Shown: in pieces, positions 13,263 through 45,800 of the stretch
How positions within the stretch are numbered: position 1 is the first letter of the stretch
Layout: every line of letters starts with the position of its first letter
Assembly: GCA_034687125.1 (NCBI GenBank)
Contig: JAQGBZ010000136.1
Coordinates: 62,001 to 126,000, forward strand
Direction of reading: 5' to 3'
Source of the DNA: Neelides folsomi
Lineage: Eukaryota > Arthropoda > Collembola > Neelipleona > Neelidae
DNA: 64,000 nt
Notes under the pieces: generated by a model
What the model saw: only the letters and a program-made list of their open reading frames with translations
Databases searched by the model: none
What the model was told of the DNA's origin: nothing
Program-made: the position numbers and the translations under genes

Positions 13263-16200
13263 ATGGACTTGACTTATCGTTCGACTGAAAAAATGATCTC
13301 TGAGGATAAACCAGTGAATAACCGACAGGCTAAGAGTCTCTTTTCTATTCGGGATCTTGTCAAATGCGACGAGGGTAAATACACTCCTTATAATTATAAT
13401 ACATCTTAATCATACATACCATATAATACTAGTACTCAGTAGTACACATTTATTGGTTAGTGAAAAATATATGGTAAATATTGTACCAGACATTCTCCCA
13501 TTAATGCATGCATCTTGCATAATTAGCATTATATTGGCATTCACCAAATATTGAACATACTACAAATAATAAGTATGTACAATAGTACATAAAGTACAGA
13601 TATCTGTAACTTTATGAAAATGGTAGTTTGAAATTATGTGCATGTAAACATGTGTTCAAATTACTTTTTACATTGACTGTCATTTTTATTACATTGTGAG
13701 CATTTAACTAAAAACAATGTATGTATAGTATAGTTAAGGAGCGGGAAGTATCTTAATTTCGAGCTTTAAGGAAGATTTGATTTGGGCGATCATTATTGTT
13801 TCATGACAAGTGGAGATAGGTCTGCCGGCTCAATAAGGAAATAATAGACGTGTGTTAGAGAAGCAGGAAATTGGTTAAGGAACAATCAAAATGTCATTTC
13901 TACATTGAAATCTAATTAACTTCTCTAATATTGAGGATTCGAGGTTGTTTATTTTGAAGAACGAGTAATTTATTACAATCAATTCTCAACAATTGAGTAA
14001 TGATAAATTGAGCGTTTTTATAAATGTACATTTATTTAAAACTTATATCCTTTACAATGTTAATTCCTCCAAAGGTAGTACATGAATCGTAAATATTCTC
14101 ACATTTAAGAGTTCATTTCGTTTCATCCGTATTAGGTAAGTAGATAACAATTTGTGTCTTAGAGGAATAATGTATATTGTATAATTGTATACTAATATGT
14201 ATGTGTGATTCAATAAATAATGAATAAGAATGTTAGAATTTTGTATTGTGGAACTTGATAAGAGTAATCAAATACTTGTAAATTGTAGATCATTGTTGGT
14301 TTCAAATGATAGAAAATTATAGACTAAGGACTCATATATGTAAATGTAATGAGGAACAATTTGTTTTTCTTGCATTTGTGGTTAATACAGTTCGCACGTT
14401 TGAAATGGCCAATGCCAACTGGAAAATAAAAATTAAAGTAATTGTTACTCGAGCTTAATGTAACATTTAGGAGGACAATTCACACCCTGGCAGTCAAGAA
14501 GTTAAATAGAAAAGTGTTCTATCAATAATTATAATTTTTCATTTTCTTTATTAATTTTACCATATTTAATTTTAATGGATAATGGTGATTGTTTTAGTCT
14601 TTGCTTGGTTTTTTAAAACGGTTTGTTTCTGACAATTTTATCTAATTGGTCTTAACTTTGTCGTTGCATGTTTAATGAGGAGTAAAAATTCCAGTAGCTT
14701 GATGAACGAAGGATTGAAATAATTGAATTTCTGTCTTCCCTCATCTCCATCGAGTGGGCAGACGGAATTCAGTCAATAAGCATTTCTTTACAATTCTCAG
14801 ATAGTTAGTCATTAGTTAAGAAGGGAAAACCTACCATATAATTATAATTAAGGAGCAAAAAAGGTTGTTTGAATAAATTAAACTTAAGCCCATTTTCTGT
14901 TTGTTCTTTCAAGAGGCGGAGCTGAGAGGTCACGAAATCCTCATTAGCTTTAAAGATTTAATGCAATTAGCTCAATTATTATTAACCGGCCTCTCTGGTG
15001 AGTCGGGAATTTTCAAATGATCCTCTCCCATTACCAAACATTAACTTCTCTCTATTTGTTTCTCCATTAAAATTCACCTTTCAAGTGGACCACAAAAAAT
15101 GAACATTAACACTCACAACTCAAGTTCTTACAATTTATTAGTCCACCCCCGTCATTACACGCCATTCGATTTCCCTTTTAGAACACATGCAACTTCCTTC
15201 TTTAGCCCATTTACTCTTTTTTCAAAAAAGCTACTCCGTCAATACCTAAAGAGCTCAACCCTTAAGGTCAATATTATATGCAAGTTGGAAGCATTTACAT
15301 ATATAATCCACTTTTAGTTAAGCACAATAAATTGAGAGTTAAATGCATATGATATTATAATGTTATAATTTTATTTATACAAATAATATAATTTACATAA
15401 GTTTATTGACTAACATTCTTTCGAAAATACATTAAATTGAATTGACATTATTTGATATTTGGTTTGACAATATTTGGTTAAACATGGGTAATAGTGTAAT
15501 AGTATAACAGTAGCTTATTAATTATAATTTTTAATTATTAATTATTAGTTTAATTTGAGGTAAGGTTCTTAATACTTGTTAGAATAACATTAAAAATTTA
15601 TATGAAATGATGAGAATGAGGAAAAAGAGTCATTTACTCTGAATAATCTAAATATTTGATCTTATAATAATATTATTGACGCATAGAAAAATAGACAGTA
15701 AAAAGTTAGCGTTAACATAAATAGGAGTCAATTAACCAGAAAGTTAAAGTTTAATTATAAGTTTATGTCTCACAGTAGAGTAAGTATTCATGTATTCTGT
15801 ATTAGTTAATTGTAAATAGAATCATATAAATTTGACAAGCAGATCAACCTATTGATTGGACTCAATTAAAGGACGGTCGAGTCATTCGGAACTAATTTGG
15901 GAAATTAAAAAGAGGGAGAGCTTGGTACAATTAGGATTTCCCATTATTCCGAGTAATTGCTCTCATTTTAATTATTATTTGGGGCTGAAGGACTCGCTTT
16001 GTGTCCTCGACAGAACTCCGGTTTACAGGTAGAAAAGAACATTGTTTGGTAATGGAAGCCCCAAGGCTCCGCTTTTTTGGATAAATGGGCAAGTTAAGGG
16101 GTTCCCTTTTTTCTCGTCTCGCTTCGTCTTCACTCACTGAGGACTGACGATTGGAGGTTCTTTGTCTTTTACACTGCCAGGCTTCAACACCTGAAAAAAG

Positions 16201-19200
16201 TGAATCCCTTCACTTCTACCTGGCGCCTCTAAATTTCACTCTCCTTCCTGCCTCATCATTTCTTTAATGAATCCAGAGATTGATTGATTTCTCTTACTTT
16301 TCTTCCAGGAAATCACGCCCACTCTTTAACATTATTTTCAGTTATTTTGGTCAGAAAAAATACTTTTACAGTTCTTTTATAAACTTTTATTTCTTCTGCA
16401 CAACAACACAACGTAGGATAGAAATTGAAAATTACATTAATTTAAAGTATACTTTAAAGTATGTATTAAAAAAATAGTCAAGAAATTCATACATACTCGT
16501 ATTTATACAGGAAGATATACCATATACGTAGGTATACCATAATGATAATCTGTAGGTGAGTGGTTGGTGAGTGATGTCTGATGAATCAAGATTCGTTATT
16601 TACAATTACGATTCGAAGTTAATTACAATTACAATAATACATGTTAATAATGGAATTATTTTTTATTTACTTAAGGTATGAAATATTATCAGTTCTAATG
16701 AACAAAATGCATTAGCATTTTCATTTTTAAGAAGTTGTAAGAGATAAGAAAATTAATTTGCATTTAAGAGAAGTTCCTTAAATGAGTGAATTAAAAGCTC
16801 AATTTGGCAAAGTATTTTAATTAGGGACGATTAGACGCTGATGTTTGTCAAATCGACCGTATGATTAATGAATGGACGGAGTTGAATGAGCCGGAGATGG
16901 TCGCATAGAGAAAGACGCTCTTGGTCGTGGATCTAATGGATAGGTCATGTAACCCTTATCGCACGTGTTTCCATCATTTTTTCCCGTAAAATCACTCAGA
17001 CACTCTGACTCAATCTCCATTACAAGAGTCGCCCGTCTGTCGAATCCCATTAACTCCCTAGTAATGCTCTTGCCAATGAGCTTCGCGAGTCCTTTGCCCT
17101 TTATCATCTCCGTAATTCGATAAGCGTAATGAGTCAATCTGAAGCAATAAATGGTTTTAACGCTCCTCCTCCTCTGGAACATTCCTATGGATTCCTTCCT
17201 AAGTGGGTGGAGAGATAGGGAGAGTAAATTAAATAATTTGAAGTTAAGGAACTTCCATTAAATGTGGCTCAAAGCGGATCTAATCAAAGAAGAAGCGGAA
17301 TAACTGACGTTCACTCTCCATAATGGAAAAAGGAAGTTACAGATTTGGGGATGAAGGAATTAAGGTGTACAAAGTATAAAAGATCTCTCCAAGAGTCTCG
17401 CTCAGGAATTGGTATATGGCTCCGGCAGAATGGGCCCAATTTTTCGGAAGATCGAGTAGAAAAAGGTTATGTTGTTCCACATGAAGGTTCTCCACCTTTT
17501 TCCACTTTCCACGCCAGGTTCAACAACAGCGGCGGTGACAAATGTAGCGGCAAAAGGAAGTGGTTAAAGTGTGACCGGAGATCATTTAGGCACATGCTCT
17601 TCAATAATAACTCACCGTGCATATCATCTTATTTTTTATTCATTCAACAAAGAACCCTTTCAAATTATTCTATGTAATTTCCTAATTTACCAATGATGAT
17701 GTTTGGTGGGATAAGAGAAGTTGCTACACATAAGGAGTTATTCGAAGCAATTTCTGCATTCAATCTTATTTTTTAATAGTACAATAAACTAACCATGCTT
17801 AACATTTTTTAGAGAATCGAGGAGAAGAAAGACCAACAAAGGACGAACTCATTAGAGTTGTGGATTCCCCACGAAGTTCAATCCTCGACAGCGGCGGCGA
17901 CCACGAGGACGGTAGATCTTCCAAAAGCGGCGACAACGACAATGACATTATGGGCCGAGACGAAGGCTTGTCTGATGAAAATGGTTCTGAGGGAATTGAT
18001 GACATCCCTAAACGAAAACAAAGGAGATATCGAACCACGTTCACAAGTTTTCAGCTTGAGGAGCTTGAAAAAGCCTTTGCTCGTACACATTACCCTGACG
18101 TCTTCACAAGGTGAGAATTACAAAATCCATTAAATAAGCAATTAAAATCCATTAGACCAATTCAAAATTTTAAAACCTAAATCATAAAATCTTTTAATTT
18201 AAAAAAATAAGATAATAGCAAATGTGGATTTTTTGAGGCACCAAAAAATAAATTCAAACTCCGATTTCTTTTGATGATATTTATACACCCACATACTTAT
18301 CGTATATTGAATTCCTTTTATAATTAATAGTAATAACTACTGATATAAAATAATATGTGTATTATGTACTAAAAAAAGTACATACCTATTAATATTATTG
18401 CAATGGAACTTGTATTTTTTATATTCTGTATCGAACTAATGTCAAGTTTACAATAATAAAAGTTTCTTTATTGCAAGTTAAATTTTAGTGCGATATCCTT
18501 ATGGATGAACCAATCTCATTGTTTTAGTATGTACAGTTCATAAGTACATGTATGTATATTTATTGTTAATCATAAGTATAGATTATACACATATGAACAG
18601 GTTATGTTATTCTTCAAGTTAGGAGAAGAGAGATAAGTGAACAGATTTCTATTTAATTTAAAAATTGGATTATGATTAGAGTAATAAAAAGATTGTAAAT
18701 TACAGAGTTAGAATAAATTGTAATGAGAATTGAATAAAAAGCGAGTCGACGTTTTCTGGCTCGCTCTTAATAAGGAGAACTTGTTGGTTGCAAGTTGTTT
18801 GAGATGATAGGAGTTCTTCTAGTGCACACACAATAAATATCCATCCACTTCGTATTGTATGACTTGTTTTGAGTCACATAATGAAAAAGAGCTTGCCCTT
18901 GAAGAATCCCACTTTGCTTTTTCTCTCTTAATCTAATTGTGGTCTAATGGATGGGTAATAGTCGAATTGCAATGGTGAGAATTGAGAAATAAATCTCTTT
19001 CAGAGAGGAGCTTGCCATGAAGATTTCATTGACAGAAGCAAGGATCCAGGTAAGCTGTTTCTTCTGTTCTCCCCTCTCCGCTCCAATGGATCATCCAGGA
19101 TAATTATCCGGTTTTTACAATTGACTGTCTCTCGGCCGTCTCGGCCCCAGCGACCAAGGGTGGTCCTAAATCATGTTATACGTCAACCCACAGACTTTCA

Positions 19201-21560
19201 CTTATCACCATTTCCCTTAATGTAATAATACAATCGAATCATTAGGAATTAAAAGGAGACGACATTAGGAGCCTTTTCCCCATTTCTACTTAACTCGTCA
19301 GTCCGCTGGAGCCAAGGGACTGGCCCGTGACTTTTGAAGGATAATGAAAGTGAAGTGGCCCGATGTTTGGAGTTAAAGGAAGTTCAAACTTTTATTTGCA
19401 ATAAAAAGATTTGGAAGGTATAAAAATAAAGGCCCTCGTTTTGAATTTTATCACTACTTCTTTCAATAGAGGTTGAAACATTAAAATATCGTTAGGGCCA
19501 GTTTAAGGGAGTCGTCGGGGCTAATGGACATACGAACCAACTTTTCATATTGGAATTCAAGAAGATAAAAAAGCTTTTAAGGGCAAGAGAAGTCGTTTCT
19601 CAACTCATATTTAATCACTTCCTATCTCTAACAATTGGAGACTCCTCCTCAGACCCTTTTCCTCATTTCTCACAATTTACGAAATGAGAATTTAATTAAA
19701 GAATTCAATTACCGCTCTCGTGAAATATCATTGTTACATTAGCCAACATAAGTAATAAGATGATGATCTATAGGGAAGTAAGTAACACATGACATCTTAT
19801 ATTGTAGATTAAAAGAAATGTTTTTTTTCTTTTGTGGATTTAACAACTTGAGAAAATCTATGATTTCAATATTTGGTTTTTTATATTGAAGTGTACCATA
19901 AAGCCATAATGTATGGTATAATACATTATAAATATGTAAGTAGTAGAGTATATTAATAAGTAGTATTTACACAATACAAGGGCATATTTATTTATTAAAC
20001 AAGAAATACCTTTTCATAAATTAAAAAAATAATAATAAAATAATTTTTTAATTTACAATTTCACATAAAGCAAACTTTTAAAATGGTAACATTTTTTGAG
20101 AGCTGCTAATTGAATGAGTTAAGGGAGAGTTTTGTCAAAAGAGCTCCTCCTTGTACAGCTGTAAATGTCGCGTTGGGTCCAAGCGACCAGAAAATTTATG
20201 AGTCAACCGCCCTCGAAATGAGTCAAACGAGAATGGCACTTTGGATTCCTCGCATTCCTCTTGAAACCACTCAATTTGAGTGACACATTTGGGGCCCTTT
20301 AAACTTATTGTTGTCCTCAACTTTGTAGTCCTTAATTGTGAGAGACTCATAACATTCCAAGTTGATGTCAAGATGTCTCCGGGTCTTTAAAAATCATATA
20401 TAGAACTTTATCTTTTTCAGACCACCAGACCTGACCTCTCCTCAAATATTTTACAATTTTACTCCACTTTCTCGAAGCCATTAATGAGCTTAAACAAGTT
20501 ACTTAGGATCATTACGTTCACATTCTTTTCTACATTTTTCCGTAATGAACAATTGATGGGGTTTTGTCGTAGGTGGAATTTAAGCTGGATATAATTTAAT
20601 AGAATGAAAAACCATCTGTAAGTTATGTCCATCGTGAATCCTTGGTCGTTGAACGAGTTGCCAATAGAAAAGAGTTGATAATGTTAAGGGCGAAACCAGA
20701 GTGGATCTAAAGCGAGGCGAGAGAATTTAGATTGGCTCCGGATAGTTAATTTATGTCGTGTTCATTCTCTTCATGTTCACCATTCACGAGTTCCCTAATA
20801 GTCTCTAATTTATCACTTGAAGTTCAAATGGTGAGGATTCTCTTTCTTCTCTCAACAGGTTTGGTTTCAAAACCGACGAGCAAAATGGCGAAAGAACGAA
20901 AAAGTTGGCCCTACCAGTCACCCGTACAATCCATTTTCCACCACATTGACACTAGGCGGCCCGCCGTCTCATCCCATGCAACAAGGAGGAAGCCCAATGA
21001 ATTTCGGCCCTCTGTTCCTTCGAAAACATCCAGAACCGCTGCCGTCTCCTCCACACAACTCCCATCCCATGCTCCCTCATCGAATTCCTCATCCTTGGTC
21101 TCCGCATCTCCCCTATTTCCCATCGCTGTCTCCGCATGGTGGGAGTCTCAATTTCCGCCCGTCCTATTTGAATCCTGCAGTGGCAGCGGCGGCCGCGGCG
21201 GCTTATCTTCCCGGCCCACCCTCCTTCCAGAACCTTCTTGCATCCTTCCAACTCAACTCCCATCACCATGAGTCCTTGATGAGGTCGGGAATGGTCCCGG
21301 GCCATCATGAGCCTTCAAGCGACGGTGAAACGGAAATTGGTGGGCGCGGAGGTGAGCGAGTGAAGGGATCCCCGACGAGAGACGTTGATGAGAACTCGAG
21401 TGATTTCAGCCCTACTCTGAACGGGAGCTCAAATCCTAAAAGCACCACAGAGATCGAGCGACGGACATCAAGTATCAATTCTCTTCGGGTTAAAGCCAGG
21501 GAGCATGAAATGAAATTAGAAAACATAAGAAATGGGTCCGGCGTCATTGTAACCAGTTAA
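13263..21560 (+). CDS. al: Aristaless-type paired-like homeobox transcription factor, copy A (complete, 4 exons)
   Basis: Exons 13263-13374, 17813-18110, 19004-19049 and 20859-21560 encode about 385 aa; phases 1, 2 and 0 match at every junction. The homeodomain (residues 107-166) reads [20 protein letters not shown] at its start and [15 protein letters not shown] at its end. Gln50 makes it Q50 paired-like. It is followed by [13 protein letters not shown], as in arthropod Aristaless. Introns cut the homeodomain in codon 31 and between 46 and 47. Exon 1 carries LFSIRDLVK (26-34), similar to the eh1/octapeptide Groucho-binding motif. The C-terminal region has a seven-Ala run, PHRIPHPWS and a recognisable OAR motif ([19 protein letters not shown], from 356). 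In known arthropods Aristaless patterns distal appendages; nothing here shows expression. It is orthologous to al/ARX/alr-1 in the broad sense. Exon 1 lies 4.4 kb upstream and was chosen because phase, the MDL start and the motif match the paralogue at 47.4 kb. Confidence 0.93.
14911..14990 (+). promoter_or_regulatory. Conserved non-coding element 1, copy A (al-A intron 1)
   Basis: Contains GTCACGAAATCCTCATTAG (14929-14947), then ATTTAATGCAATTAGCTC (14956-14973) and an AATTATTATTAACCGG end. The same ordered blocks occur at 27312-27386 (same strand) and at 44481-44560 (opposite strand, so the same orientation relative to its own gene). From GTCAC to the CTC after ATTAG I count about 41 of 45 identical positions with the 44.5-kb copy. 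Clustered TAAT/ATTA cores suggest a homeodomain-bound enhancer; that function is inferred. Confidence 0.7.
17553..17576 (+). promoter_or_regulatory. Conserved non-coding element 2, copy A (before al-A exon 2)
   Basis: A 24-bp block containing GGAAGTGGTTAAAGTGTGAC is perfectly matched on the minus strand at 42627-42650, before exon 2 of the paralogue. A CACATGCT motif follows shortly after in both copies. It lies 237 bp upstream of exon 2. It could be an intronic enhancer or an alternative promoter element. The surrounding 110-codon ORF (17345-17677) is not conserved in the paralogue. Confidence 0.65.
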
Positions 21561-24500
21561 GATCACGCCTTACCAATTTTAAGTGAGTTTTATGTTTTCA
21601 TTCATATAGGTATTATAAAAGCAATTGTTATTTCATATTCCTAATTCCTAATATCAATTACGTAATTGATTATATGTATAATATATTATATGGGAAATAA
21701 ATTATTATTCATATAAATATTATTACAATAAACATTAAGCTCATAACACATATAGTATCGTATATATATATGTACTTATATAACATATTTATAAAGGTCA
21801 TTTTATTACATTTATGATTATATTATAAGAGAAATGAATGCATTTTTTCACTTTCTTATAAGTACATAAAACAATAAATAAATGTAACATGCCTATACAA
21901 TATTTGTTTCTGATAATTTATGAAATTTATGGAATTTATTGCAAACACTTTGTTCGTGGGTATAAATGTTTAATGTAAAATGTTTTAGTCTTTTGGAAGG
22001 GTGAAAATGTGTGTAAATTATTCATAAGACAATTTTCATTATAATTTAATAGGATATTTATACTTTAGTTGAATACTCAGGATAACGAAGGGAATCTCAT
22101 TTGGATGTAAATGGATTCGAGAAAGCCAAGATGTATTACTGTAATTGTATATACAAATTATTACAAACTCATGAATTGTCCTATTGAGTGACTTATTATA
22201 CAAATATAAGATTAATATTAATGATTCAATTGAATAAAATAGTAGTTTTGCGAATTAAAAACCCCTTTTCCATAAATTAATTATCTTTTCATCACGAAAT
22301 GGCCGAATGGGCCTTTCAATATGCGCAACGGTCTCAAGCTCTTCCGAGAGGCCCATTGGTAACGAAACAAAAAGACGAATGTGTTTATCTTCTCAATTAA
22401 ATCTCATTGATATTCCTTATCTCATTGATTTATTAGAACTTGGGATTGTGACAAATTGGCCGTGCGAGCAGAACATGCAGACATTAAATTCTCGTAGTTG
22501 CCTCACAGGTTGGAAAAAATTGTTAGGCGCAACTTTGTGGATGAGCATTGAATGAAAGATCCAGCACGTCGACGCCATCGGAATGGAGGAGTTAACATAT
22601 CTCCTATAGACACACTCAAGACGGAGAGGAATTAAGGAGAAGGAATGGGGATGGATTCTAATGTGTAATGAAGATTGTAATTAAATTTGCGGCGATCCTA
22701 ATGATGATCTTTACTGTTAAGAACCCTCGTTCCTCGATTTATGATCCGCTCCACCTCTAGTCGGAGGAGGAGGAAAGTGAGCAAATAACTCGTTCTTATC
22801 GTGACTTCATCGCATTTGTCTTCGCTCAATGACATCGAGGCATGTTGAACAAGATTCACTTAAACATCGGGAGAGAATCAAAGTTGTTTCTCCACTCGCT
22901 CAAATCCCCAATGCTTCTCTGATTGACAGTTTTAATTACCGCCGTCTTCTAATAAATGAATGTCCGACCTCCTATAAAGTTACCATTTGTCGAATTTACC
23001 CGACAAACACGCCGACGCATCTGAGAGCCATTTAGTCTTTCATGTTTCAAGGGAAAATGGAGGAGTCTTTTAATCCAATTTCTTTCATTAACTCTCGCTC
23101 AATTGTGAGATGAGCATGAAAAGGGTGAGAGTTTGCTCGATAATAGTTATAAAATTAATAAACTAATTTGGAATGTCCTCATCTCTCGTTTCATCTCATC
23201 TCATCTCATCGGTGCGGTGTGGTGGCTCAAAGTGAGATAATATACAAATGGACAACAATGCTAATTGGATGATCGTGACTTGGCAGGTTTGAACTTTAAA
23301 GCGGTTGAAGGAAGAAGGGAAGTTTGCATGGAGCCGCCGATGGCCAATCCACGTCTCTTTGCTCTTACAACAATGCGAGAGAACTTCCTTTTTTAAATTC
23401 CCTTTTCTTTTACGCCCATTAAGCTTCTTATGTTTTTACTCCTTCCTTAAGCTCCTTTAATTCATCGACCACCAATTGGACTTTTTTCTCTTTTCGGATG
23501 AATTGAGAAACTTTGTCTTATTACATGAGAAAACTCTATGAATTGTGGATAAATTGCTTAATTTCCGTACTTGCATTATTACTATCTAAATAAAATACTT
23601 GCCATAATTGTAATTTCCAACTTTCAACATTAGCAGTTAGTTAATTTGCTGTTCATTTACGCTCAATTTCATCTAAAGCATAATTAAACCCAAGCATTCC
23701 TTCACACTCATTCGAGCAATAAAAGAAATAATAATTATGTATTCGTATAATAAGAGGCAATTTTCTCCTTTAATTGTTTACAAAAACTGTTCACACTTGA
23801 ATAAATGAATTGTTCTTCGGATTGCACAAGAGAATCAAAGTAACCGTGCCCTTATTATCCTAATTATTAAGAAATTCTCCATCACAACTTTTCATAATTA
23901 CGAGTTGAAACAATATGAGTAATTGTAATGACCAATAAGAAATCGTACAATTAGGTTCATTTTCTAAAGAACATTTAGATACTATATTATTTATTAAGCT
24001 TTCATGAAGCCGTTTATTGAAATTGAAGAGATGAGTGACGGCAAATTGCAAAGATTGACAAGAAAAAGTTACAATTATGTATTTCATTTAACTATTTGTA
24101 AGCAAGATTCTCATGCCACTGGATTTTATAACTCGGGAGCTCATACCCAAATGTTTCGTTCATCAATGAACCGCAAGTAATGAGCTAGGAGTACATTTGG
24201 AATGGGCAAATAATGGAAGTAGCTAATTTTTGAAACTAAAGGAAATAATTGTAGGTAGGAAGTTTTGGACGATGGCCGAAGGGCTCGAGGCCTTTAATGA
24301 TACTAATTTCCTAATGATGGGTTTAAGAAAAAGCGAAGTGATTAGGGTAATGAAAGGCGCCTAACCTGAGAGTCAAGAGGTCATTGTGAGAGCAGGGAAA
24401 TACGTGACTTTTTCTTTTGTCTCCTTTAAATTGCGATGAGGAACCCAGTCATCATCATCGCAGAGACACAGAATTGTCCATGAAAAGGAGAATTAATAAT

Positions 24501-27311
24501 CGTCCCTTATCATAGCACTCCACCAGGTGAACGTCGTTCTCCCATTATCTCCCAAATTCCTTCACCTTCATGCGAGGACCCAAAAGACGCCCATTAGCAC
24601 TCAAAATATAATTCCTCTAATAGGCTCTCATCATTATCTCTGTTCTCAAATGGTCTCAAAGGGTCGGGTAGACGCAGGTTGTTGAAACAGAATACATGTC
24701 TAATAGAGCAATAATGAGATGCGGTTTATCTTAATGATAATTGAGAATTGGAGATTGAAAGAAATTTCTCCAATCGATTATGCTAACAAGCGACTCCATC
24801 TCAATCCCATGAATCAGCATTATCAATCAATGTACAACAGATAGGGAGTGTATAAATATTTCCAAAGGTAATTTCCTTAAAGGGTGGATGAATTGGAGAG
24901 CAAAGGGAACAGGGAGATGTATCTTTTCCTTTTACATACTACTTATATAGGGTCTTATTGGAGTCGTGTCCCAAAGGCCGCCGCGAGACCCAACTCCTAT
25001 ATCATAAATTGTAATTAAGAAACAGATTTTCTGGAAACGTTTTACGGCCCCTAATGACGTACAATTTCCTTCGGTGTGTTGTTTTTCCCCTCTTGGCTCC
25101 TCTGTTTTTGTGTCTCTGCTGGTCCCCGCCCGCCCCGCCGTCGACGACTCCCTTTGCCCTTTTACTTAAAAACATAAACCTCAAACTCATTTCTCACATA
25201 TTAAGTGAAAGTTAATTTCACAAATTCCCCTTATTGAAATGCGCGCTCCCTCGATTATGCTCAATTAACTTTTTGTTCTTTCAAAAGGCCTGACCTCCCT
25301 TCCACTCACAAACTGCAAATTGTGAAGAGGCTTTGATTTCATTTAATCTTTGACTTCTGCGCCATTTCCCTCTTATCTCAAATGAACAATGGAAATGAAA
25401 CAAATTGGATTTATTTAAATGCACAACAATCATATATATTACTTGTGTACGTCTTCATATCTCATCAAAAATTATATAGGCAGCGATATTAAGGTAATGA
25501 ATGTACTAAGTAGGTATACATGTGAATATAAGATACTCTATAAGTACCTTAAATACTTATTCAACCTACATACAATTTACACACTGAATAATTGCTACAC
25601 TATAAATACATAATATTTATGATAAAAAATAAATCGTTTAGAGGAGTTCTAGTAAATGAAGCTGAGTAAATTGTGTTTAATTTTATTAATTACATTTAAT
25701 TTACACTTGTAAAACTTTAATATTTTCCTATTTTTTATATACATAGTCGTATGTACATATACTTGAAAGTACATACCTACTGTATCTGAAAGTTTACTAG
25801 CATATCAGTAAGTTTACTTGGTATGTAATATACTCTATGTACCTAGGTATATAAAATTTACATTTAATATCTTAATATATGTATATATTGAATATTTGTG
25901 TCTACAGGTAGATAAATGAATTAATACTTATTCTATACCTTTCAAAGTAAATTAAATAAAATAGTTGTTCAATTCATATCTGTTTCAGAAAATTAAATGC
26001 AATTAAAATCTTGTATTTGTAAAGCAATTCCCACAATTTTAATAATTTGCTTTGTAGACATGTGTGAATTATTTTTGTGGTTAATATTACTTCCGTTTCT
26101 TTCCTTTTCTCGTTCACGACTTGTTTTTATAAGAAAGGGGCGAGAGAAGCGAATTGACTTAGGGAAGACGAGTTTTACATTATGAACCACCACAATGAGA
26201 AAAACGAGCGTCTCTACTCATTTAGACTTATTTAATGGAGAGGCTAATTAAATAAAAATTTGACTGATTGCTTCCACCGTCGTTTATTTAACTTCTCCTG
26301 ATTGTTCTCCTCTTGTTTCCTCCCTACCAATTTAACAGTTTGCGGTCCCTAATAAAAGAGAGTTCAATGCGAGGTTTTGTACTTACTCTATACATACATT
26401 AAATGCTGGAAGGTAAGAGCCTAGGAAAATATTGAATCTTGCAAAATGAGGAGTGGAAATTACGGACAGAGTTGTTAAAGGCCTCAATTAGGAATGTTGA
26501 ATTGAGTCAAACCTCAGACTTATTATCATTACCATGAGTTGGTTAATTAAGCTTCAAGAGAGTTTTTCTCAATGCCAAGCGTGAAATAAAATTATATTTG
26601 ATTGTCGTGTTCATGTGCAAAGCGTTGTCCATGTTCTCCATTTATGTGTTAATTAATATAGCAGATCGTTGTTTGCATTACATTAGTCTCCCTATTTGCA
26701 TCTCATTTATTTGAATGTTAAGTGGTTGGAAAAACAACCGTGGTGCGTATTTTTTGTTCTCGAGGACTAGAAAGAGAGGGACGATGGAGATTTGGGTATA
26801 ATTGCTTAAAGGCAGTTTAAAATACTCTCTAATTGTATGTACATTGTTCATACAATATATGCATTGGTCTATGTAAATGAGAAGTGGTAAACCGGTAGCA
26901 GCTCTCATTCTTGATTAATTAAACGAGAGTTTTTCAAATGAACTCTTACATTGCATTATGGCTAACAATAAGTAACAAGGTATGGTATGTACTATATATC
27001 TTGTATTATGCATATTAGTCGTGTAAGAAATTGTGGAAGGATTGCGTGGAGAATATTTTTCAAATATCCAAGTCTACCGATGAGTTGAATGCTCATAAAC
27101 AAATGGATGAGCCTCGGAGGTTGAAAGAATAACATTGAATTTGAGCAAGCTTAATTATAATTAGTCGAGGGGCAAAAACGAAGCCAACAGATGCATTTAT
27201 GTACACATTACGATTTCTTCCGACATTTTGTGTAGGAACAAGCTCAAGACATTCTCATGGGCTTTGGGTGAAATAAATCCAAGAATTCCAATTTTCTACT
27301 CATTTCTCAAA

Positions 27312-27386
27312 GAAGGCGTATCAGAAGGGTCACGAAAATCTCATTAGCCTAAAATATTTAATGCAATTAACGCAATTATTAACCGG
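27312..27386 (+). promoter_or_regulatory. Conserved non-coding element 1, intergenic copy B
   Basis: Carries GGTCACGAAAATCTCATTAG, then ATTTAATGCAATTA and CAATTATTAACCGGC in the same order and spacing as the two intronic copies. Its upstream flank AGGCGTATCAGAA resembles the 44.5-kb copy (AGGCGTGTCAGAA) more than the 14.9-kb copy. It is in an intergenic position with no adjacent homeobox exon, so it is not a simple by-product of duplicating the gene with its intron. Confidence 0.65.
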
Positions 27387-30300
27387 CTCATGAAAGAGCT
27401 CCTTTTTCCTCGAGTCGGCCGAAGCAGCTAATAAACTTCAAGCGCACCTCAACACTTTTCTTATGTAATTAGCCTCAAATGAATCTCGTGGTTTGGATGT
27501 TTAATCTCAGATCCCCTTCGCCGCTGCTCTTTAACTCGATCATAACTCCCGAGCGAGGCAAAGGCATATTTTAGAATTAGCAGATGGGAGGATGAGAATG
27601 TTGGGAAAAGGTGTAAGTATCTGAAGATTTGTTCCTTCTCCGCTCAACAACTCACTTTTCCTACATTTTGAAAAGTGATCGCTGTTAATGAAGGGAGTGA
27701 AGGAGTTGAAGGACTGCGAGTGTTGAAGAGGGAGATGAACCAAATCTCGCAGGTTGGAAAGGGAGGAGAGCCAAAGGCAAAATTAATTAAGTTGGAAATG
27801 TTTTCCACAGCAGGGTTCCAATGATTCTGATGAGCCCCTCGAAAACCTCTCTTCTTCTTCCCCGACGAGAAACAAAAGGAGCCTTCGCTAAACTCCTCTT
27901 TTACGGAAAGTGACTGAGGGTGATTTCCCCGAAATGGGAACAAAAGGGGGGGAGGGAAAGGAAGAGGAGGCGGAAAAACAAAGTCGGCCCGTAATTTCCC
28001 TACTATGAAAAATTAGTGGATTCGGAGAACAGCGCGGAAGAAGAGGTTTGCCCACTAATAACAATAAGTATCTTCTGACACACCTTCGACCGACCACTTC
28101 GCCTTATTGATTTTCCCTTTTAACTCATCTTTGTTTATGAATTACCCGTCCTGGGGAGGACGGAAGTGGGAGCGAGGGATCTCCTAATCAACCTACAGAG
28201 GTGTGCGTAGACCGGCGCTAATCCTCCGATCCGGTTTCCAGACCTAATGTGACCTGACGCCTCCCTATGGGCTTCTATTGTATTGGAGGTAATGGGGAGG
28301 GCGGGCGGAGTTGGGACGGCGCTAAATCATAGAGCTTCACTTCTACACTAATGTAATAATCCGACGGGGATTCAATCATGGAGATTTTAATTGGGAGAAG
28401 ATCTACTGCCTCGCGTGTTCACTCCAGACTTCCCGCTTCGACCCTTCCATACAAATATTAACTCACTTCAACTCCAAGACCCAGATTTACCTAATTTATT
28501 CTTCCTCAACTGACCCAATTCACATTTCTAATTTCTACTTCATTTGCTTACATAGTTTTAAATCAGTTCGTAATATGATGATAATACTAACGCTTAGAAA
28601 TATTAATATTACCTTATGTACAGTAAATAAATTTATGGTACATTTCTAATTTTAATTAAATATGTACAATTCAAAAGGATTAAGATAATTGTAAAGAACC
28701 AAAGGCTGAGATGAATCTTTTAATAGCAAGGTTAATCCCGAGCTAATTTCATTTGTTAAAGATTATGATTGGTAAGAAGGATAGAATGAAGTGTAAAGGA
28801 GGGTTGGCCGTCCAACCTCTCCACTTGTTGAGGGAAATGAGTGGAAAAAGTAAATGATGTTGGGCCAAGGAAGGATTACATTGGACCTTACACCTTTAAT
28901 TTGTAGCTCAGTGGGAGACGGTCCATAAAACAAAATGGTTAAATCATTTATTTCTTTTTCCTCAGTCCGCTATTCATAAATAAGTAAAAGAAGTTAAGAG
29001 TTGATATACCAAGGGATCGCAGACCCTTCAAACAATTTATGAACCACAAGTTTCCACAATGAATCCCGACGGAAGAGCAATTGATTTCATTTTCCTCAAC
29101 TCCATTTAATACTCCTTGTAAATATATGTAATGTATTTATACGTATAGGAACTTTCGGCTTTATTTTTAAGATGGGCTTGAGATGGGCCTTATGGGAACT
29201 TAATTGCCTCGACCCTTCTCTGAACTGCGGGCGACCTCGTCACGACATCACCAGAGTTGTCCAACGACCGAGTAGATTTCAGTTAATTGTATAATCATAG
29301 AGCGAGGAAATGATTGTTGATTTTGTCGAGCGGAGAGGAAGTGAGAGGAGAAAGGGACTGGACCCTTCGCATTACCTTGCAATTAGGGCTCCGTTTAATT
29401 ACGCTCTCTTCAACACGCCATGGTTTAACTCCTTGAAACAAATTGGAAAAGTACACGGAAAGACGCCCAGAATTCTTTCCCAGTCTGCTTCATCGAATCC
29501 CCCAATTTTCTACCTCAAGGGAAAAAACCAGAATTCCTTTACAATATTCCAAAGAAACTTTTGGAAAATTAGATTAGAAATTAGCCACCCACGGCACACG
29601 GCAATTTCCTTCTTTTTCTCACTATCCCTTTTCTCGGACGCTCAACAAGTTCATGTTTGATTATACCTTATTATTACGCAGGTAAGTATAATGTAAATAA
29701 GGCTTTACAATGTAATTCCCTTTTTTCTTTTGCAAGTTAAGCTTGGTTTTATACATTACTCTTTAGAACATCGCGTAGTTAAGAGCTGAGTTTCTTTATG
29801 ACTCTTTTAGGAAAGATGGAAGCCCGGTTTGGCTATTAGGATATTAGTGTAGAAAGTGAATGCTAATGATGCTAATGAAGAATGAAACGATGAGTAAGGA
29901 CATTATGAGAAATATTATGACAGGTTGAGTTATGGTTTCCCCATATTATTATTTTATGGAAAAGTTCGGTGGTGGTGAAAGAAGCGCGGCAGCTGGGTGT
30001 GGACGCCGTGTGAGACTCCTGTTGTTCTCCAAGGCGCCAGTGGACTGAATGGTTTAATGCAAAGAAAACACTGGAGGTTCTTGAAATAAGGGACACTTGG
30101 GGATTTGAGGGAGGAGGAAATTAGGAGTGTGGAGGAGACCAGCAGGAGAGCAATTATTATATTGGACAAAACCTTGGGTCAACTTCACTCTGCGGAGATC
30201 ATTAATTATTCCGCTCCTCTATAATTAGTCGGCAATGACTTGGTCCATTCACCCCCTTCAATCCTCTCCAAATAGGGACCAAATATGGAATATTTCAATT

Positions 30301-31937: not shown

Positions 31938-32029
31938 GGTCAATTTCATCAATTCTCATAATTATATTTTCACCTTTAGTAATTAGTTTGAAATGACTCA
32001 TCAAATTTGCATCCACTGCCGCTGCTGAC
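31938..32029 (+). promoter_or_regulatory. Conserved non-coding element 3, copy 1
   Basis: Ordered blocks GGTCAATTTCAT, AATTATATTTTCACCTT, TAATTAG, ATGACT, TCAAATTTGC and GCTGCTGAC. The same blocks in the same order lie at 38042-38134. An overlapping minus-strand ORF (31780-32091) is not preserved in the second copy, which argues for non-coding conservation. Confidence 0.6.
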
Positions 32030-37130: not shown

Positions 37131-37567
37131 GTGCCATTATTTATCTTAGAGCACATAGGGAATAGAGAGTTTCAGGAATCTTCCTCTTCGACTTGAGCTT
37201 CCTCTTGATGACGTAGAAAGGCAAGGGGCAGAGCAAGAGAAACCTTATAATCTACTTTCAGGAAGTTTCTTCTTGTGTTCTTTCTCTTGGTTTGTGAAAT
37301 GCTGCACGAGAAGTGAGTGCGGATGTGCGAAAGGTTCGCAAAAGGCAAGAATATTCAATTTCATTGAGTCCTATGCAACCAAGATGAGTCATGCTTTTTT
37401 AGACTCCCACTCCAGCATCCTCTTGCCCGATAGAAGTTACTAGGGGTTTCAAGTGGAAGAACAAGTCGAAGTCAAACCCTCCTATAAGTCCCAAATGAAA
37501 ATAATAGGGAAATCCATGGAAATTTTGTTGAAATTTTGCCCAATGTGCTCTAAGATAATAATGGCAC
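37131..37567. mobile_element. 437-bp MITE-like element with about 25-bp terminal inverted repeats
   Basis: The left end GTGCCATTATTTATCTTAGA and the reverse complement of the right end, GTGCCATTATTATCTTAGAG, are inverted copies differing by a one-base indel; both run on to GCACAT. The interior has no transposase ORF. TA dinucleotides flank both ends within a few bases, compatible with a Tc1/mariner-type insertion, but the exact boundary is uncertain. Confidence 0.65.
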
Positions 37568-38041
37568 TGTAAAGTATACGAAATTAATGGAATAAGGAGC
37601 GGTTTGAATTATAAATAAATGGCATTTGAATTGACATTCACGAGTTTCGTTCATCATAATGTTTTGCTCCTTGCATAATAATTAGAGATTTTAAATTAAA
37701 TGGGCCATTGTTGATACCGCTTATAATGGTAGTAATTAAAAGATTGAGCAATGGAGATGATTGTGATATGACCGCTATGGGATAAATGAGTGTATTAGAA
37801 TAATGTTTTAGCGCGTTCGAATAAAAGGGCCGATAAGGTTGATAATGGTTGATAATAGTAATTACAAAGTCAAAAGTAATTGTCAAGAAGCGTAAAATTC
37901 GTTCTCAATCTGGCTCAGATTTGGACAAAGGATTAAGAAGAGCATAGGGGATGTATATATATAAAAAGGTGAATTTCATATGAAAATACGTAGTGGATCA
38001 TAAAGGGGCTGGCGAACGCAATTATCTTGAATAATGAAGGG

Positions 38042-38134
38042 GGTCAATTTCATTAATTATATTTTCACCTTCAATAATTAGGAATCGATGACTGGTCAAT
38101 TTTGCTCTCGAGTTTCCTTTTACAAGCTGCTGAC
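38042..38134 (+). promoter_or_regulatory. Conserved non-coding element 3, copy 2
   Basis: Matches the copy at 31.9 kb: GGTCAATTTCATTAATTATA, TTTTCACCTT, ATAATTAG, GATGACT, TCAATTTTGC and GCTGCTGAC, colinear over about 95 bp with small indels. It lies about 1.7 kb beyond the 3' end of al-B and points the same way as copy 1. Confidence 0.6.
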
Positions 38135-39822
38135 ATCATTATCACATTGGACCGGCAGCCAACAAACATCCCCTTTAAACCCTTCTTTAGCGCAAGTAAA
38201 CCAAAGGGATCCAGGTGAGCTAATTTATTTCAAGTCATCTCATTTGATTGGATTACAAGATCCATGAAAAAAACATAAAGAAAACTTGATATTTTGCTTT
38301 TCTAATCTCAACTTTCAGACATCAATTATTCAATTAATTTTAAAATGTATGTTCATTTCTGTACTATGGATTTTTACGTACATGTAGGCTATGTACTCTA
38401 CTACATGTTAGACGTTGACAAAACATTCCATTTATATATGTATAGTACATAGGTTTTAAATATTTAAGACGAAGAAAAACGCCCGTGTTTTTGAAGAAAG
38501 TTAAGGTTTAAAGGGCTTGAAGAGCGTTTTCAAATCTTTAGAAAGAGGGGAGTTTGTACGAAGAATAAGAACCAACGAGCTCATTAGTGTGTTATTTAAC
38601 TTCAGTTAACAACCTGCTTTGAATGAGAATCAAAGGAGTCTTTTAAGGAGGCAGAGAGGTCATCGTTAAAGGCGGATGATGAATTGCGGATCCAAGAAGT
38701 TTGCAAAGAAATGAAATTGAATTCCAATTTGGTTGAGTCAATAATGAAACCCATTAGTTGTTGTAATTTATTAGTCACAACTCACGTTTATTTACTATTT
38801 ATTAACGATCTCAATAGTATTAATATTGTAAAGAGATTCATTTCGCTAAATGAACATCCATTAATTATCTTATTACACACGTTATACAAATTTAATCACT
38901 TGCGTAGGTTTGTAATATATTGTGCTTACAAATAACACAATTCCAATACGTTACTATACGTAGAAGTGCACACATACATAATATGTATATTAAATTAATA
39001 CAATGTTTCATTTATCAAGATTAAAAAATAATTGGATTATCATATAAATGGATTTATTATTAATTACAGCATAATTCATTTAATAGTCCAGAGTTGACAT
39101 TTGTCAAGGAAGAATGATTAAATGGTCAATGAAGCTCATTGGGAACTCGTAGGAATCTGATTGATGTATTTAGTTACATGGGAGAAGAAAATGGTTTGGG
39201 AACGAGTCTTTAAATCTCCAGTGAGACCTGAAGAATTCCCTTGTGTGTATGTGAGTTATATGGCCAGGGATGTTGAATTGAAGACTAATTGCCATTCAAT
39301 TCTCCCCAATTGTCGCTCACTATTGAAAAATGTGTTCTTATTTGTACAATTCTGAATTGATTGGGATTTGATTGAACTCCATTTCACTCTATTCATCTCC
39401 CATGACCCCTTCTGAAGAGTTCACTCAATTGAGATCAAAGGAATTATCATTACCTAATGAACCCTAATATTCACATCCAAGTCGTCTGAAAAGTACGTGG
39501 AGAGACGTAATGGAAATTACAGGTTGAATGAAGAAGGTTCATTCCTCTTAATCTCTTCACTAAATAATAATACTAATAATCTAATTCCATATAAAGGCTC
39601 TTCTCCTTACAATGTGGATAATATATATGACATTTTCATACTTATGGTATCACTCGACTCGGATTTTCCTCGGTAATCCATGTAGAGGAATTTCGTGGCC
39701 CAAGGGCTTAAATTGTAAATGTAAATAGGGGAGTAATGAGGGAAGAATAAATAATATGAATCGATTTGAAAGAATGATGAAGGTCAATAAGTGATTGAGC
39801 AGTTTTGATCTCCTTCTTTCGC

Positions 39823-42800
39823 CTACCTCTCGTCTTCTCCATCACCGCTGCTGCTCTCTCGAGCTTTAACCTTTTGTGGGCCGCTTAGAGGGAATTTGGC
39901 CAATTCGAGCTTCTGCCCTCCCCACTTCTCCTCAGAGTTGAACAGATCCCGCAGTGGAAGGTCGGAGGCGAGGTGAGGGGGGAGGAACAGCGGCTGCTCG
40001 TTCACGAATCCCCCGCCCACGCACGCCCCGACGTTCAAGTGAGCAAGTAGGGATTGGAAGGAAGGCGGGTAGGGAAAGAACGGCGACCCGCGACGGACGC
40101 CTCCAGATAGATATCCCACCGGCTGGGAACTCCAGGGATGAGGAATCCGATGCGGGAAGAAATGGTGAGAAGGTGGGGATGGCAATGGGGAAATATGAGC
40201 TTCAGGCTTTCGCACATACAACGGTCCAAATGGAGAGGACATTTGATTGGACCCGCCTGGCGAACCTCCGAGATGAATTCCCCCGGCAAATGGATTATAA
40301 GGATGACTTGCAGGACCAACTTTTTCTTGTTTTCGCCATTTGGCCCTCCGGTTTTGGAACCAAACCTGAAACATTTTAAATCGTCTTAATTAACATCATA
40401 TCATTCTTATCCAATTTGGGATATTTAATTGCACGAGTCATTTCCTTATATGTGCATCTATCTATATTAGCGTATTGTAAATAATTGACAATGGTTTTAT
40501 TTCATATGTATGTATTCTAATGGAAATAGACATTAGATAAATAAAGGGGAACTTCAACTTATTAGAACGCCAGATGAAATTCAACGAAGGAGGAATTAAC
40601 ATTTGTTCCATCATGGAAGCGAGTGCTTGAATGCCGAATCTTTTGTATGTACGAGTACTTATATAATATGGACGGATCAAAGGGCCGGAAAAGGAATTTG
40701 AAGGGATTTGAGTGAAATATGATCGGCTTCCAGGCTCACCTATTTCTCATCTGCATAAATACATATAAGAACTTGAATCAATTCTTCCTTGTCTGGAACC
40801 TCTCAAAAGTGAAGAATTCATAGAAGTTCATCTCTTTTCGTCACTCACACTCTGCCCGGTTAAGATGGATAAATAATTATATGGAGTATTTTGGAAATGA
40901 CAGGACCAAATAAATAAAATGGAAAAAGAAGAAGAGTGGGAAAAGGTGAAGGAGTTGAAAAGATGCGTCCAGGGAAAGAAGAAAAAACCGTTTTGTTTTA
41001 CGAACCACCCCCCATTGAGTTACAAATGAAAATGGAAGAGCGATCTCTAATTCTATTCTCTACCTGCTCTCCTTTAGCATTTTCTCGGGTAAATCCAAAG
41101 TGCTCTGGGTTAGAACCATTAGAAGATATGAGACGAAAATATCCTTTATTTTTCACAAACCACATTTAATGAGAACACGAGGCCTTAAAATATTAAAAAG
41201 GAGCAGACGGAAAGTAAACGATGGTTCGACCATTCATAACATCCCTTTCCAGACCTTCAGCCAAATTTGTCTTTTTCTTAATTAGCCATTGGAGATCCTT
41301 TGTGTAGAGAAACGAGGGTGAAGATTTTAAACAAAACCTCTACTAAATACTTTAAGTTATATGGGGTTACTTCGTTATATCTATGTATGGCTTATCCTAC
41401 ATTCAAATTACATTTACGAATTCTTATGTGTCTGTGTTTACTATTCTACTAATGTTCCTATTGTCGAATAGTAACTTCGAGCTTAATAGACATTTGTGAA
41501 TTGAAGAATTGAGTTTATGTCTAGGGAAAGATGTAATGTATAATCTATTTAGTGGCATTGAAACAATCCAGAAGGGTGAACATGGGCCAATTTTGTAAAA
41601 GTAAAAAGGCGGGGATTTGAAGACGACCACCAAGAAAAAGGTAAAGTGAGCGCAATGAGGCGTATGGGCGTAGATGTAAATTACAAGGGAGAGCGGGCAG
41701 GAAACCCTCCTCACACTCTAATCAATGATTAAGGCACATCTTTACCTGAATTCGAGCTTCAGTCAATCCGACCTTCATGGCAAGCTCTTCCCTACAAAAC
41801 AAAACATCAATGAAGTGCCTTTCCAAACATCCGCTCTTTTGTTCAATGAATTTAAATTGAGCTTTTTAGGCCCTTAATAGTTGTAGACCAACCAGGAGAA
41901 AATAAAAAAAGTTTTTAATTAATTGAAAAGTTTAAAAGAATAATGGAAATTTGAAATTGAATTGAAAGTTTGGAATAATGGACTGATAAAAATTATTGAG
42001 CATACGAACCTTGTGAAAACATCAGGGTAGTGGGTTCGTGCAAAGGCCTTCTCAAGTTCTTCTAATTGAAAGCTTGTAAAAGTGGTTCTGTATCTTCTTT
42101 GCTTTCTTTTCGCCGGCATTTCATCGACTTCATCAGTTGATCCGTTTTCATGTTCATCGGAGAATCTTTCTTCGTTGTCCATTGAGTCTCGACGATAAGA
42201 TTCGGTGCTTCGCCCTTCCTCATCTGCGAGTTTCTCAAAGTCTTGGGACTCCTTGGGCGATAAATTCCCAGCTTCCTCATCCTTATCTCCATTTATGAGA
42301 TCTGGAAAAGAGAATTGAAAGAGATGAGTCGCAAATTACTTCCCAATTTCCCCCTTCACATCTCATTGCTCTTCAATTATTCTGTTCGACGATTAGGCAC
42401 GGGATCCACAGCCAGAGCGAGTCCCATTAAATTGAAAAGCAAATTCAAATCTCAAAGTGGGGAATCTTCTTGGAACATTTTACATAGTTGAGTGAATATT
42501 GCATTTAAGAATATCACAACTGTGCTATGAATGTTCTTCACCCCATTTAATATTGGAAAATTGGCTGGGGATCTTAATGTTTTTCATGGTCCTTGAGTGG
42601 GCTATATTCTGTAGCATGTGCTACATGGTCACACTTTAACCACTTCCTTTCGGACCTGCAACCATTGTCCCTTTAAAGAAGGGACCAGAATGGAAAAAAC
42701 GAAACGTCGGCAATTTTCGCCTTTATGATCCTTAAACTCCTTGAAATGTGTCCATTAAGGTAGGTGGGCACTCGGCTTGCCGTTTATTTCCACAATTTCT

Positions 42801-45800
42801 AACTTCCTTTCATTACTCTTTCGAACCGCTCGTCTTTCTCATAAGAAACACCCCTTTCAAATACTGCAAAAATTACATTAGTCAGTCGTAAAAAATTAGC
42901 TAATGATGCCTAGCAAAGTGAATGGACCCCAACCCAAGCACCTCTTAATTTCAAAGGTTCAGTATATATTAAATCAGTAAATAAAGTTTGCACTAGTTAT
43001 AGTAGATTGTTATCTCGAGTACATCTTTGGATGTTTCTACTCAAAACGACTCAAATTAAATTAGTACTTTTGTAGTTACACGTATCATTATAATTACCCA
43101 TAACATTTTTTATTGTTGGAAGAACCTGTACTATTGATAATATGTTATCATTTGTCTACATGATATCAATTTAATTAATATAGACTTAATGGTAGGTGAA
43201 CAAAATATTACTAATATTACAGACACACCTATTGTATCCTAAATAGGCCAAAATGTTCATAAATTGAAGAAACGGAAGTCAATGAATGAATTGTTTTATT
43301 TGATGGTTGATTGGTTGTTGAAAGCGATGAAAGCGTGATTTGATGATGAATTTATTTTATTAAAAAGGATAATGAGCTCTCATATAAGTTTCATATATGA
43401 TGTGGATGGAATTGAAATTTCCTTGTAAACTCGTTTTGGAAGAAAAGTCTTGAGGGTGTGTGGAATGGCGTCTTGTCCTATTCGAAACATGGAAAGTGTT
43501 GTTTATTTGAGTTGGAGCAAATAAGGATTGTGGTGTTATTATCATTATCATAACATCTGCCTAACCGTGTTCCGAACCAACCCGACTAAGAGCTCATCAA
43601 TCACAATCAGGTCCTCAATCATCCCTCTGTGTATTCAAGAGCGCCTCCTCTCAAATTCACACGGCAATAATTTGAGTTTGATTACATGATCTGGTCTTTT
43701 TCCTCTTCTCGAGCAAATTTCAATTTGCTCCTGTGGTTTCTCAGTTTCCTCCTCCACTTCCATTTCATCCTTGGTGGAAAGGACGGCGAGGGCATTGAGG
43801 CTCGAAATTGGTAAAATGTTCTCTATTAGGTTAAAAATCAACGTTATGGGAAATTACATCTAGGGCTATTGAGTCGTTGGAAGTGGATCTATGGATTCTC
43901 AAAATATTCCATTAGATCCATAATCATCCGTGTAATACTCCTCATTTTCGACTTGCTTGTTTCTACCTGAGACGACCGCATCAATTTTCAATAAAGTTTC
44001 GTAATGATGCGGCTTCCTGAATTTCTTTCTCAGCAACCCTCATTTCCTCCGTCTCTCTTTGGAGTTGTTGGGAGCTCCAATGGTTCGGAAACATAATTCA
44101 AATACGCTTCTCACTCTCATCATGGATGGGGAAAAGGGAAAAACAAATTGCGGTGGCCGCCAAATCAATCATTGATCTGTGAATGAGATTTTTTCCCTCT
44201 TAGCCTCCAAAATCATGTAAAGTTTATCTTTACAATGGCCTTTATCCTCTCGAAATTGATTTTGATCATTTTAGTAATTGAGCCTCGTTTTTGTGAACTA
44301 ATGTCTTCTCCTTATAATTAATCCTCCTTTGAAGTATTGCTACAAGGAAGTATTAAGGATCTTTACCACCTGCATCAAACCCAGTCCTAACTTGATTATG
44401 GATTCTGTGAACACGAAGGATTCGAATGTCCTTAAGGTGTGGAGTAGTTCGAGCTCCATTGTTATTCCTCCCTTTTTTGGTGGCAGTTAATAATTGAAGA
44501 GCTAATTGCATTAAATCTCTGTACCTAATGAGGATTTCGTGACTTTCTGACACGCCTCCTCCGCAAACACTGCCAAATGGGTCCGGAGGCATTTATGCAA
44601 AAAAAACTCCTTTTCCACCTAATTATAATTATCCATCATACACTTTACAAACATATGAGTTTCAGTATTGAGTTCCTAAGATTAAAAACTTAATAGCAAC
44701 AGTGTCCAAAGCAAGTTTTTAAATTCTTCAACGCAAATTGATACTTCTGTGAAACCAAAAGCTGTTCCGGTGAATAAAATGCAAATTATAATTTCTAATT
44801 AACAAGTGCGAGGTGAAAAGTGTCAAAAACGAGAAGCTTTCCAAATTCCTCAATCAATAATCACCTTTCGATTTAATTATTAATGTATTTTGAGGTAATG
44901 TTAAAAACAAGTAGGAGAAATAATGGCTAATAAAGACATTCGAATGCAGGAGAGATTCAATGAGCCTAATATGAGATCTAATGAGCGAAAATACATGAGA
45001 GTTAATGTTGTGTTTTCCTATTGATTATTCTTTATTCTATGTATCATATACGCGTAAATGGAGCTGAGGATTTGAAAGAGGCGGAGGAAACTCGACAGCC
45101 CCTCGCCTTCGTTAATGCCTGAATTAGCGTTAAAAAGGCGTCGAAACCAAGCGTTGACTATCTTTAATAACCAAACTAAATTAGTCGTAAAATTAACTAT
45201 TAAACTCAGAAGGCTCTCAACATCTAAATTGCACTTATTAAAATTCTTATATTCCAATTTTCTAAATAGCTCAAAATTTTCTGACAACTTACACTCACTC
45301 ATCTGTCAGTAAGAGAAAATTACAATTTTTGTATTATTTATTTATGCATGTGTGAGTCTATTAGTATAAAGTTAAGTAGTCTTTTAAAAAAATCTTAAAT
45401 GGTGTAATTAAGCTTAAAAGCTTCAATGACCTAATTACTAATTGAACTTGAACATCTTTTTGTTAAAAATTAAATTAAATTAATAAATTCCTTCTTATCA
45501 TTATTATTCTACCCATAGAACTCTTATTAATTCATTATTCATGTTTTAGCAGATAAGTTTGCTTACAATATGTAATCACTTAATTCTTCCCCATCATTTT
45601 AATTTTTAATAATTGGCATTAGATGTATTACAGCGAGTTAAACAAAAGATGAGGAGGTGAAACTCGGGCTTTTAATTAAAGCTGACTAAGAGGTTTGTGT
45701 GAACAAATGTAATTAATTATTCCCATTACTTAGACATGGCGAGATTAGGTGTTTTTTCCTTCTAGAAATTGTGAAAAGGCTTGAAAAGTTGATGGCCTTC

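Follow-up and report, generated by a model that had tools for sequence, protein, structure and literature searches.

Why would two neighbouring copies of a developmental transcription factor gene retain one and the same short non-coding sequence in their first introns, and why would a third copy lie in the gene-free interval between them? This question is raised by the aristaless locus of the collembolan Neelides folsomi, which we examined in a window of 64,000 nucleotides, namely bases 62001-126000 of contig C136 (155,103 bases) in a genome of 75.1 Mb and 840 contigs. Two convergent aristaless genes, gene A on the forward and gene B on the reverse strand, are found there, and an 18-kb interval (hereafter called the desert) separates their 3' ends. 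A 77-bp element, el1, is present in intron 1 of gene A (copy A), in intron 1 of gene B (copy B) and in the desert (copy D), at the positions and strands claimed in an original prediction made from this DNA (Table 1); the two intronic copies both run in gene orientation, as that prediction had also held. With a probability of about 0.78, we consider that el1 represents the core of an enhancer which resided in intron 1 of an ancestral aristaless gene, was duplicated together with the gene and was then retained by both daughter genes.

The two genes are Aristaless orthologues as judged from their homeodomains. Indeed, the homeodomain of gene A is identical to that of Drosophila Aristaless (3a01_B) at 62/65 residues, the best among the PDB matches, and when 42 residues of gene A were searched against the genome (17 matches), gene B was 90% identical over the first homeobox exon and nothing else exceeded 78%. 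The last exon of gene A also contains the OAR motif (PF03826, E 1.5e-5 in a Pfam scan), and FSIRDLVK is present in exon 1 of both genes. The Arx family is reported to have undergone an ancient tandem duplication in arthropods (PMC10726417).

Among the three copies of el1, 62/74 positions are identical between A and D, 60/76 between A and B, and 58/73 between D and B (alignment columns 10-86). For an estimate of chance, 10 kb of gene A, 17.5 kb of the desert and 10 kb of gene B were masked for exons and compared by an ungapped, composition-aware procedure. Unrelated 10-kb stretches from elsewhere in this genome (n=20) served as the control, and the top scores in 30 control comparisons were 25.0-32.2 bits, with one of 37.4 bits. 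The el1 scores were 67.4 bits (A-D), 64.1 bits (A-B) and 36.7 bits (D-B), the last being cut by an indel. The A-D and A-B similarity is thus far beyond chance; D-B does not exceed the controls without gaps, and a gapped search in the whole genome gives it an E value of 1.4e-7.

A scan of the whole genome with the element, as the original prediction had proposed, showed el1 to be restricted to this locus: DNA searches of all 75.1 Mb with copy A, D or B as the query returned the same three places and no others, although the search needs seeds, missed the second copy of another element described below (el3) and could hence let very diverged copies of el1 escape. Also, a position-weight scan gave 61-67 bits at the three copies but never more than 1.1 bits in the rest of the window or in 240 kb of other sequence. 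Single blocks of el1 are less restricted. TTTAATGCAATTANC alone was found at 12 genome places versus two for a reversed-pattern control, nine of the 12 falling outside the aristaless locus, and GTCACGAAANNCTCATTAG with at most two mismatches was found at 16 places (control, five), where the three exact ones are all within this locus. The first block of el1 has a single match in viral contigs, which we took as chance because the rest of the element is absent there. Three copies, one of which lacks a surrounding gene, might suggest a dispersed repeat or a fragment of a transposable element, but none of the three queries revealed a fourth copy within the reach of the seeded search and all three copies sit inside one 30-kb locus; we have rejected this explanation, which appears hardly credible.

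The similarity of el1 is confined to the element. At fourfold degenerate sites in six alignable coding blocks, genes A and B are identical at only 15/35 positions, which is significantly less than the A-B identity of el1 (p=0.0004), with the neutral level here being drawn from 35 sites only. The best ungapped part of el1, picked after the fact, is identical at 38/42 positions (p 1.3e-5). In the 400-bp flanks of el1, by comparison, the identity is 43-50%, within the background of 37-55% for random pairs. Because el1 exceeds the fourfold sites and its flanks are at the background, it is the element and not the surrounding region that appears to have been kept. The claim that selection has preserved el1 since the duplication is thereby supported; the fourfold sites and the flanks have diverged while el1 was retained. 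Gene conversion can occur between inverted neighbouring paralogues, which is the very setting of genes A and B, and might keep the copies alike with no selection. This is most improbable, given that the similar tract is just 77-150 bp with its flanks at the background, that the longer coding homology has diverged at 20/35 fourfold sites, and that the differences in el1 are scattered through the whole element.

What has been kept in el1 is probably DNA rather than protein. All three copies share one open reading frame; in addition, an acceptor-like CAAG (14910-14913) precedes copy A and a donor-like GTGAGT (14998-15003) follows it, so that el1 might belong to the aristaless transcript, either as an alternative first exon or as a cassette exon. 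In that frame, nonetheless, almost every changed codon is non-synonymous (4/4 in A-D, 7/8 in A-B and 9/10 in D-B) versus 4/38 in the homeobox exons, the A-B pattern differing from the latter with p 4.5e-5, and the sequence at the corresponding place in copies B and D has no donor. Since the changed codons are mostly non-synonymous in the sole shared open frame, el1 is considered to be conserved as DNA and to be non-coding, in agreement with the non-coding nature assumed at the outset; a coding exon was rejected, and the exon explanation as a whole is very unlikely. A structured RNA was also tried as a candidate and gave no Rfam, tRNA or consistent fold signal. A search of positions 10000-50000 in Rfam gave three sub-threshold matches only, none of them at el1 or at the two further elements el2 and el3, no tRNA was detected anywhere in the window, and the fold z scores of el1 on the gene strand were -2.07 (A), 0.38 (D) and -0.14 (B).

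The simplest reading of a constrained, non-coding element in the first intron of a gene for a developmental transcription factor is that of an enhancer. In favor of this reading, we count the same intron and orientation in both genes, the occurrence at three places only, the identity above that of fourfold sites, the additional shared elements el2 and el3, and an invariant palindrome in the center of el1. Enhancer activity, the binding proteins, autoregulation and the role of the desert copy are what we infer from these features. The ancestral single aristaless gene would have held the enhancer in intron 1, and the gene duplication would have copied it. The element may then act as a fixed array of homeodomain-type sites with the palindrome TAAT-GCA-ATTA at its center and the TAATTATAATTA palindrome upstream, where GTCACGAAA..CTCATTAG and ATTATTAAC are putative sites for partner proteins. 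A paired-class dimer, possibly Aristaless itself, would bind the palindrome together with the partners, and the binding might switch on or sustain the transcription of the two genes in the same cells; one or both of them would also be helped by the copy in the desert.

The homeodomain-type sites that the original prediction had proposed are supported by the palindromes. In all three copies, the invariant core TAATGCAATTA of el1 is the palindrome TAAT-GCA-ATTA, a P3 site of the paired class (TAATNNNATTA at 14959, 27359 and 44503), and the chance of a P3 site in 77 bp is about 0.018. Paired-class homeodomains with Q50 are reported to prefer P3 sites (PMC8319359), and residues 28, 42, 43 and 44 are named for cooperative binding to TAAT3NATTA (PMC10325903). 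Both Aristaless homeodomains carry V28, E42, A43, R44 and Q50; because the named cooperativity residues are present in both, Aristaless itself could bind the palindrome in el1, as predicted from its homeodomain, and autoregulation is possible.

Several points nonetheless weigh against this assignment. Binding to this site would be expected of other paired-class proteins too, and 8/23 human paired-like factors are reportedly predicted to bind alike (PMC10325903). P3 sites are common, with 17 in the window and 34 in a 200 kb control. The spacer in el1 is GCA, while the preferred ALX4 probe is described with TAG (PMC12636397), and the palindrome of an Alx1-bound module in the sea urchin is reported to be dispensable in vivo (PMC8319359). 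Furthermore, the composite site of Aristaless and C15, which we scored as (T/C)TAATTAA(T/A)(T/A)G following what is given in PMC5402979, matched at best 9/11 positions per copy, a level that 240/382 random 165-bp pieces reach or pass. The dense TAAT/ATTA cores in the original prediction are dense only to a degree: five to six cores per 77 bp are a moderately high density, but not an exceptional one, as 6-13% of window positions reach it. The suggested POU part fared worse, since ATGCAAT sits within TAAT-GCA-ATTA itself, the POU octamer is mismatched, and no independent support was obtained.

The original prediction further stated that the introns show almost no other similarity around the copies, which turned out to be too strong. 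Homology between genes A and B around el1 extends in the 5' direction to the 12-mer palindrome TAATTATAATTA and covers about 150 bp in total. In the window, the 12-mer is found at three positions, one upstream of every el1 copy, and the 240 kb control contains another three; the chance of one TAATTATAATTA within 200 bp is 0.0025. In the desert, its spacing to el1 is 178 instead of about 90. Besides this extension, el2 in the 3' part of intron 1 is identical at 25/26 positions between genes A and B (40.6 bits, above the control), and el3 is shared by the desert and intron 3 of gene B (46 letters, 43.0 bits, also above the control). El2 and el3 are each found at only two genome places when at most three mismatches are allowed, and searches for el2 in the desert and el3 in gene A gave no match above the control.

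As for the contents of these blocks, el2 shortly precedes the first homeobox exon in both genes and contains GGAAGTG and GTGTGACC. The two copies of el3 differ by eight transitions and one transversion. In el3, GTAGCTCAGTGGG resembles what we take to be an A box; a tRNA piece was dismissed, as copy B differs at GTAGCTCAGTGGG and ARAGORN finds no tRNA. Other cross-matches at 24-31 bits, including D-B 36607/48125 (31.1) and A-D 12132/35207 (31.2), are within the control range. The strongest control match, 36 bp with 37.4 bits, pairs desert positions 24541-24576 with the unrelated contig L018:1557-1592 and may be chance or a short repeat.

Table 1. Positions of the aristaless exons and of the shared non-coding elements in the window
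Feature	Positions	Strand	Remarks
el1 copy A	14914..14990	+	intron 1 of gene A
el1 copy D	27314..27387	+	desert between 3' ends of genes A and B
el1 copy B	44482..44560	-	intron 1 of gene B
TAATTATAATTA palindrome 5' of el1 copy A	14839..14850	+	
TAATTATAATTA palindrome 5' of el1 copy D	27152..27163	+	spacing differs (see text)
TAATTATAATTA palindrome 5' of el1 copy B	44620..44631	-	
el2 copy A	17551..17576	+	3' part of intron 1, gene A
el2 copy B	42627..42652	-	3' part of intron 1, gene B
el3 copy D	28895..28940	+	desert
el3 copy B	40986..41031	-	intron 3 of gene B
Gene A coding exon 1	13263..13374	+	starts MDLTYR; resembles gene B exon 1; donor GTAAAT
Gene A first homeobox exon	17813..18110 (approximate ends)	+	
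Gene A second homeobox exon	19002..19052 (approximate)	+	
Gene A third homeobox exon	20856..21560	+	with OAR motif
Gene B coding exon 1	47282..47411	-	starts MDLSCS; resembles gene A exon 1
Gene B first homeobox exon	42009..42301 (approximate ends)	-	
Gene B second homeobox exon	41740..41793 (approximate)	-	
Gene B third homeobox exon	39823..40368	-	

The presence of el1 and el3 in the desert calls for an explanation of its own. The two elements might be the remains of a third tandem aristaless gene, of which the exons were lost and the enhancers were kept by selection and now serve the neighbours; if so, regulatory DNA would have outlived its gene. Indeed, the desert el1 stands 1.5 kb before el3 in the same order and orientation as in gene B, where two homeobox exons sit between the two elements, TAATTATAATTA is also present in the desert, and the interval is as long as 18 kb with no Pfam match in the five open reading frames scanned. 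Order and orientation of two elements, nonetheless, agree by chance one time in four, and el2 is absent from the desert. No remnant of a decayed aristaless exon was found in the desert by tblastn or nhmmer, which bears out the earlier remark that the third copy has no nearby homeobox exon, and the genome contains no more than two aristaless-type homeobox exons with an identity of 90% or more. Local copying of small pieces is, furthermore, a cheaper explanation, given that 7/20 control stretches, which were not exon-masked, hold internal repeats of at least 43 bits. A lost third gene is therefore unlikely, and it is likelier that the desert el1 is a local copy of the enhancer. The desert also contains direct repeats at 28349-28417/32625-32693 (48.0 bits) and 31949-32010/38044-38105 (41.8 bits); these are real but, in view of the internal repeats in the control stretches, are not taken as evidence. 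A genome-wide DNA search with the 28349 repeat returned its own place alone, by the same method that missed the second el3 copy.

In kind, el1 would be a duplicated conserved non-coding element (dCNE), with homologous copies beside paralogues and an identity above the neutral level. Such dCNEs of vertebrate developmental genes were reportedly described by McEwen et al. and Vavouri et al. in 2006. As in the vertebrate case, el1 is a short non-coding element beside paralogous transcription factor genes and is far more conserved than its surroundings. The vertebrate dCNEs, however, arose with whole-genome duplication, whereas the duplication here is local and inverted in a compact arthropod genome; el1 also has an extra, gene-free copy, and its conservation is known between paralogues of one genome.

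In terms of function, the LAE enhancer of Drosophila bric-a-brac 1-2 resembles el1 in that it is described as an intergenic element between tandem limb-patterning paralogues and common to both (PMC8959175). According to that account, one intergenic element and others in bab1 serve the pair, whereas both aristaless genes possess an intronic copy of their own, the intergenic one being the third; LAE has, moreover, been tested in flies, while the function of el1 is read from its letters. Compared with the P3 sites described for paired-class homeodomains (PMC8319359, PMC10325903, PMC12636397), el1 shares the invariant TAAT-GCA-ATTA, and the cooperativity residues are found in both Aristaless proteins, but its spacer is not TAG, this AT-rich genome contains many P3 matches, and binding to el1 is a prediction. 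The closest relatives of el1 would thus be the vertebrate dCNEs in kind and LAE in function, with the local inverted duplication and the gene-free copy as special features. Among the titles and abstract beginnings listed, with most subscription journals outside the scope, there was no report of a non-coding element common to aristaless paralogues.

Enhancers retained after duplication are best known from vertebrates, and the present locus adds a case of local duplication from an arthropod with a compact genome, in which nearly saturated fourfold sites provide an internal clock and a third copy stands away from any exon. The three copies of el1 reveal which bases stay unchanged, and the locus offers a small case for asking how regulatory elements are shared or divided between two developmental genes in tandem.

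We also compared two other linked homeobox pairs, a Pax3/7-like pair on contig C192 and an Otx-like pair on contig C60 (names given by reading), over 8 kb around each gene. In the Pax3/7-like pair, ten matches of at least 29 bits were obtained. Five of them are strong (64-510 bits) and keep the reading frame, another two, at 41.1 and 34.2 bits, also keep it, with values of 70% and 77%, and are probably coding, and the remaining three (29-31 bits) are within the control range. The single match in the Otx-like pair is the homeobox exon. No clear shared non-coding block was therefore found in these two pairs, which are few. In the Pax3/7-like genes, a 308-bp block (L049:5203-5510/L050:5829-6136) is 96% identical versus 82% for the homeobox exons, perhaps as a result of gene conversion.

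Elsewhere in the genome, contig C20 (L029-L036) carries eight Hox-type homeoboxes in one direction, which we interpret as lab, pb, Hox3, Dfd, Scr, ftz, Antp and Ubx. Neither abd-A nor Abd-B is on C20, which extends only 97 kb beyond Ubx, and with 20 homeobox regions of the genome inspected, a loss of these genes is not implied; the pattern would be compatible with an acariform mite, a group in which abd-A is reportedly missing (PMC3766265, PMC12220506). A false spider mite was considered as the source and dropped, since the intradiol dioxygenase family that such mites carry was not found. Within the window, a 904-amino-acid open frame (50578-53292, reverse strand) upstream of gene B matches STELLO in Pfam (PF03385, E 2.1e-9).

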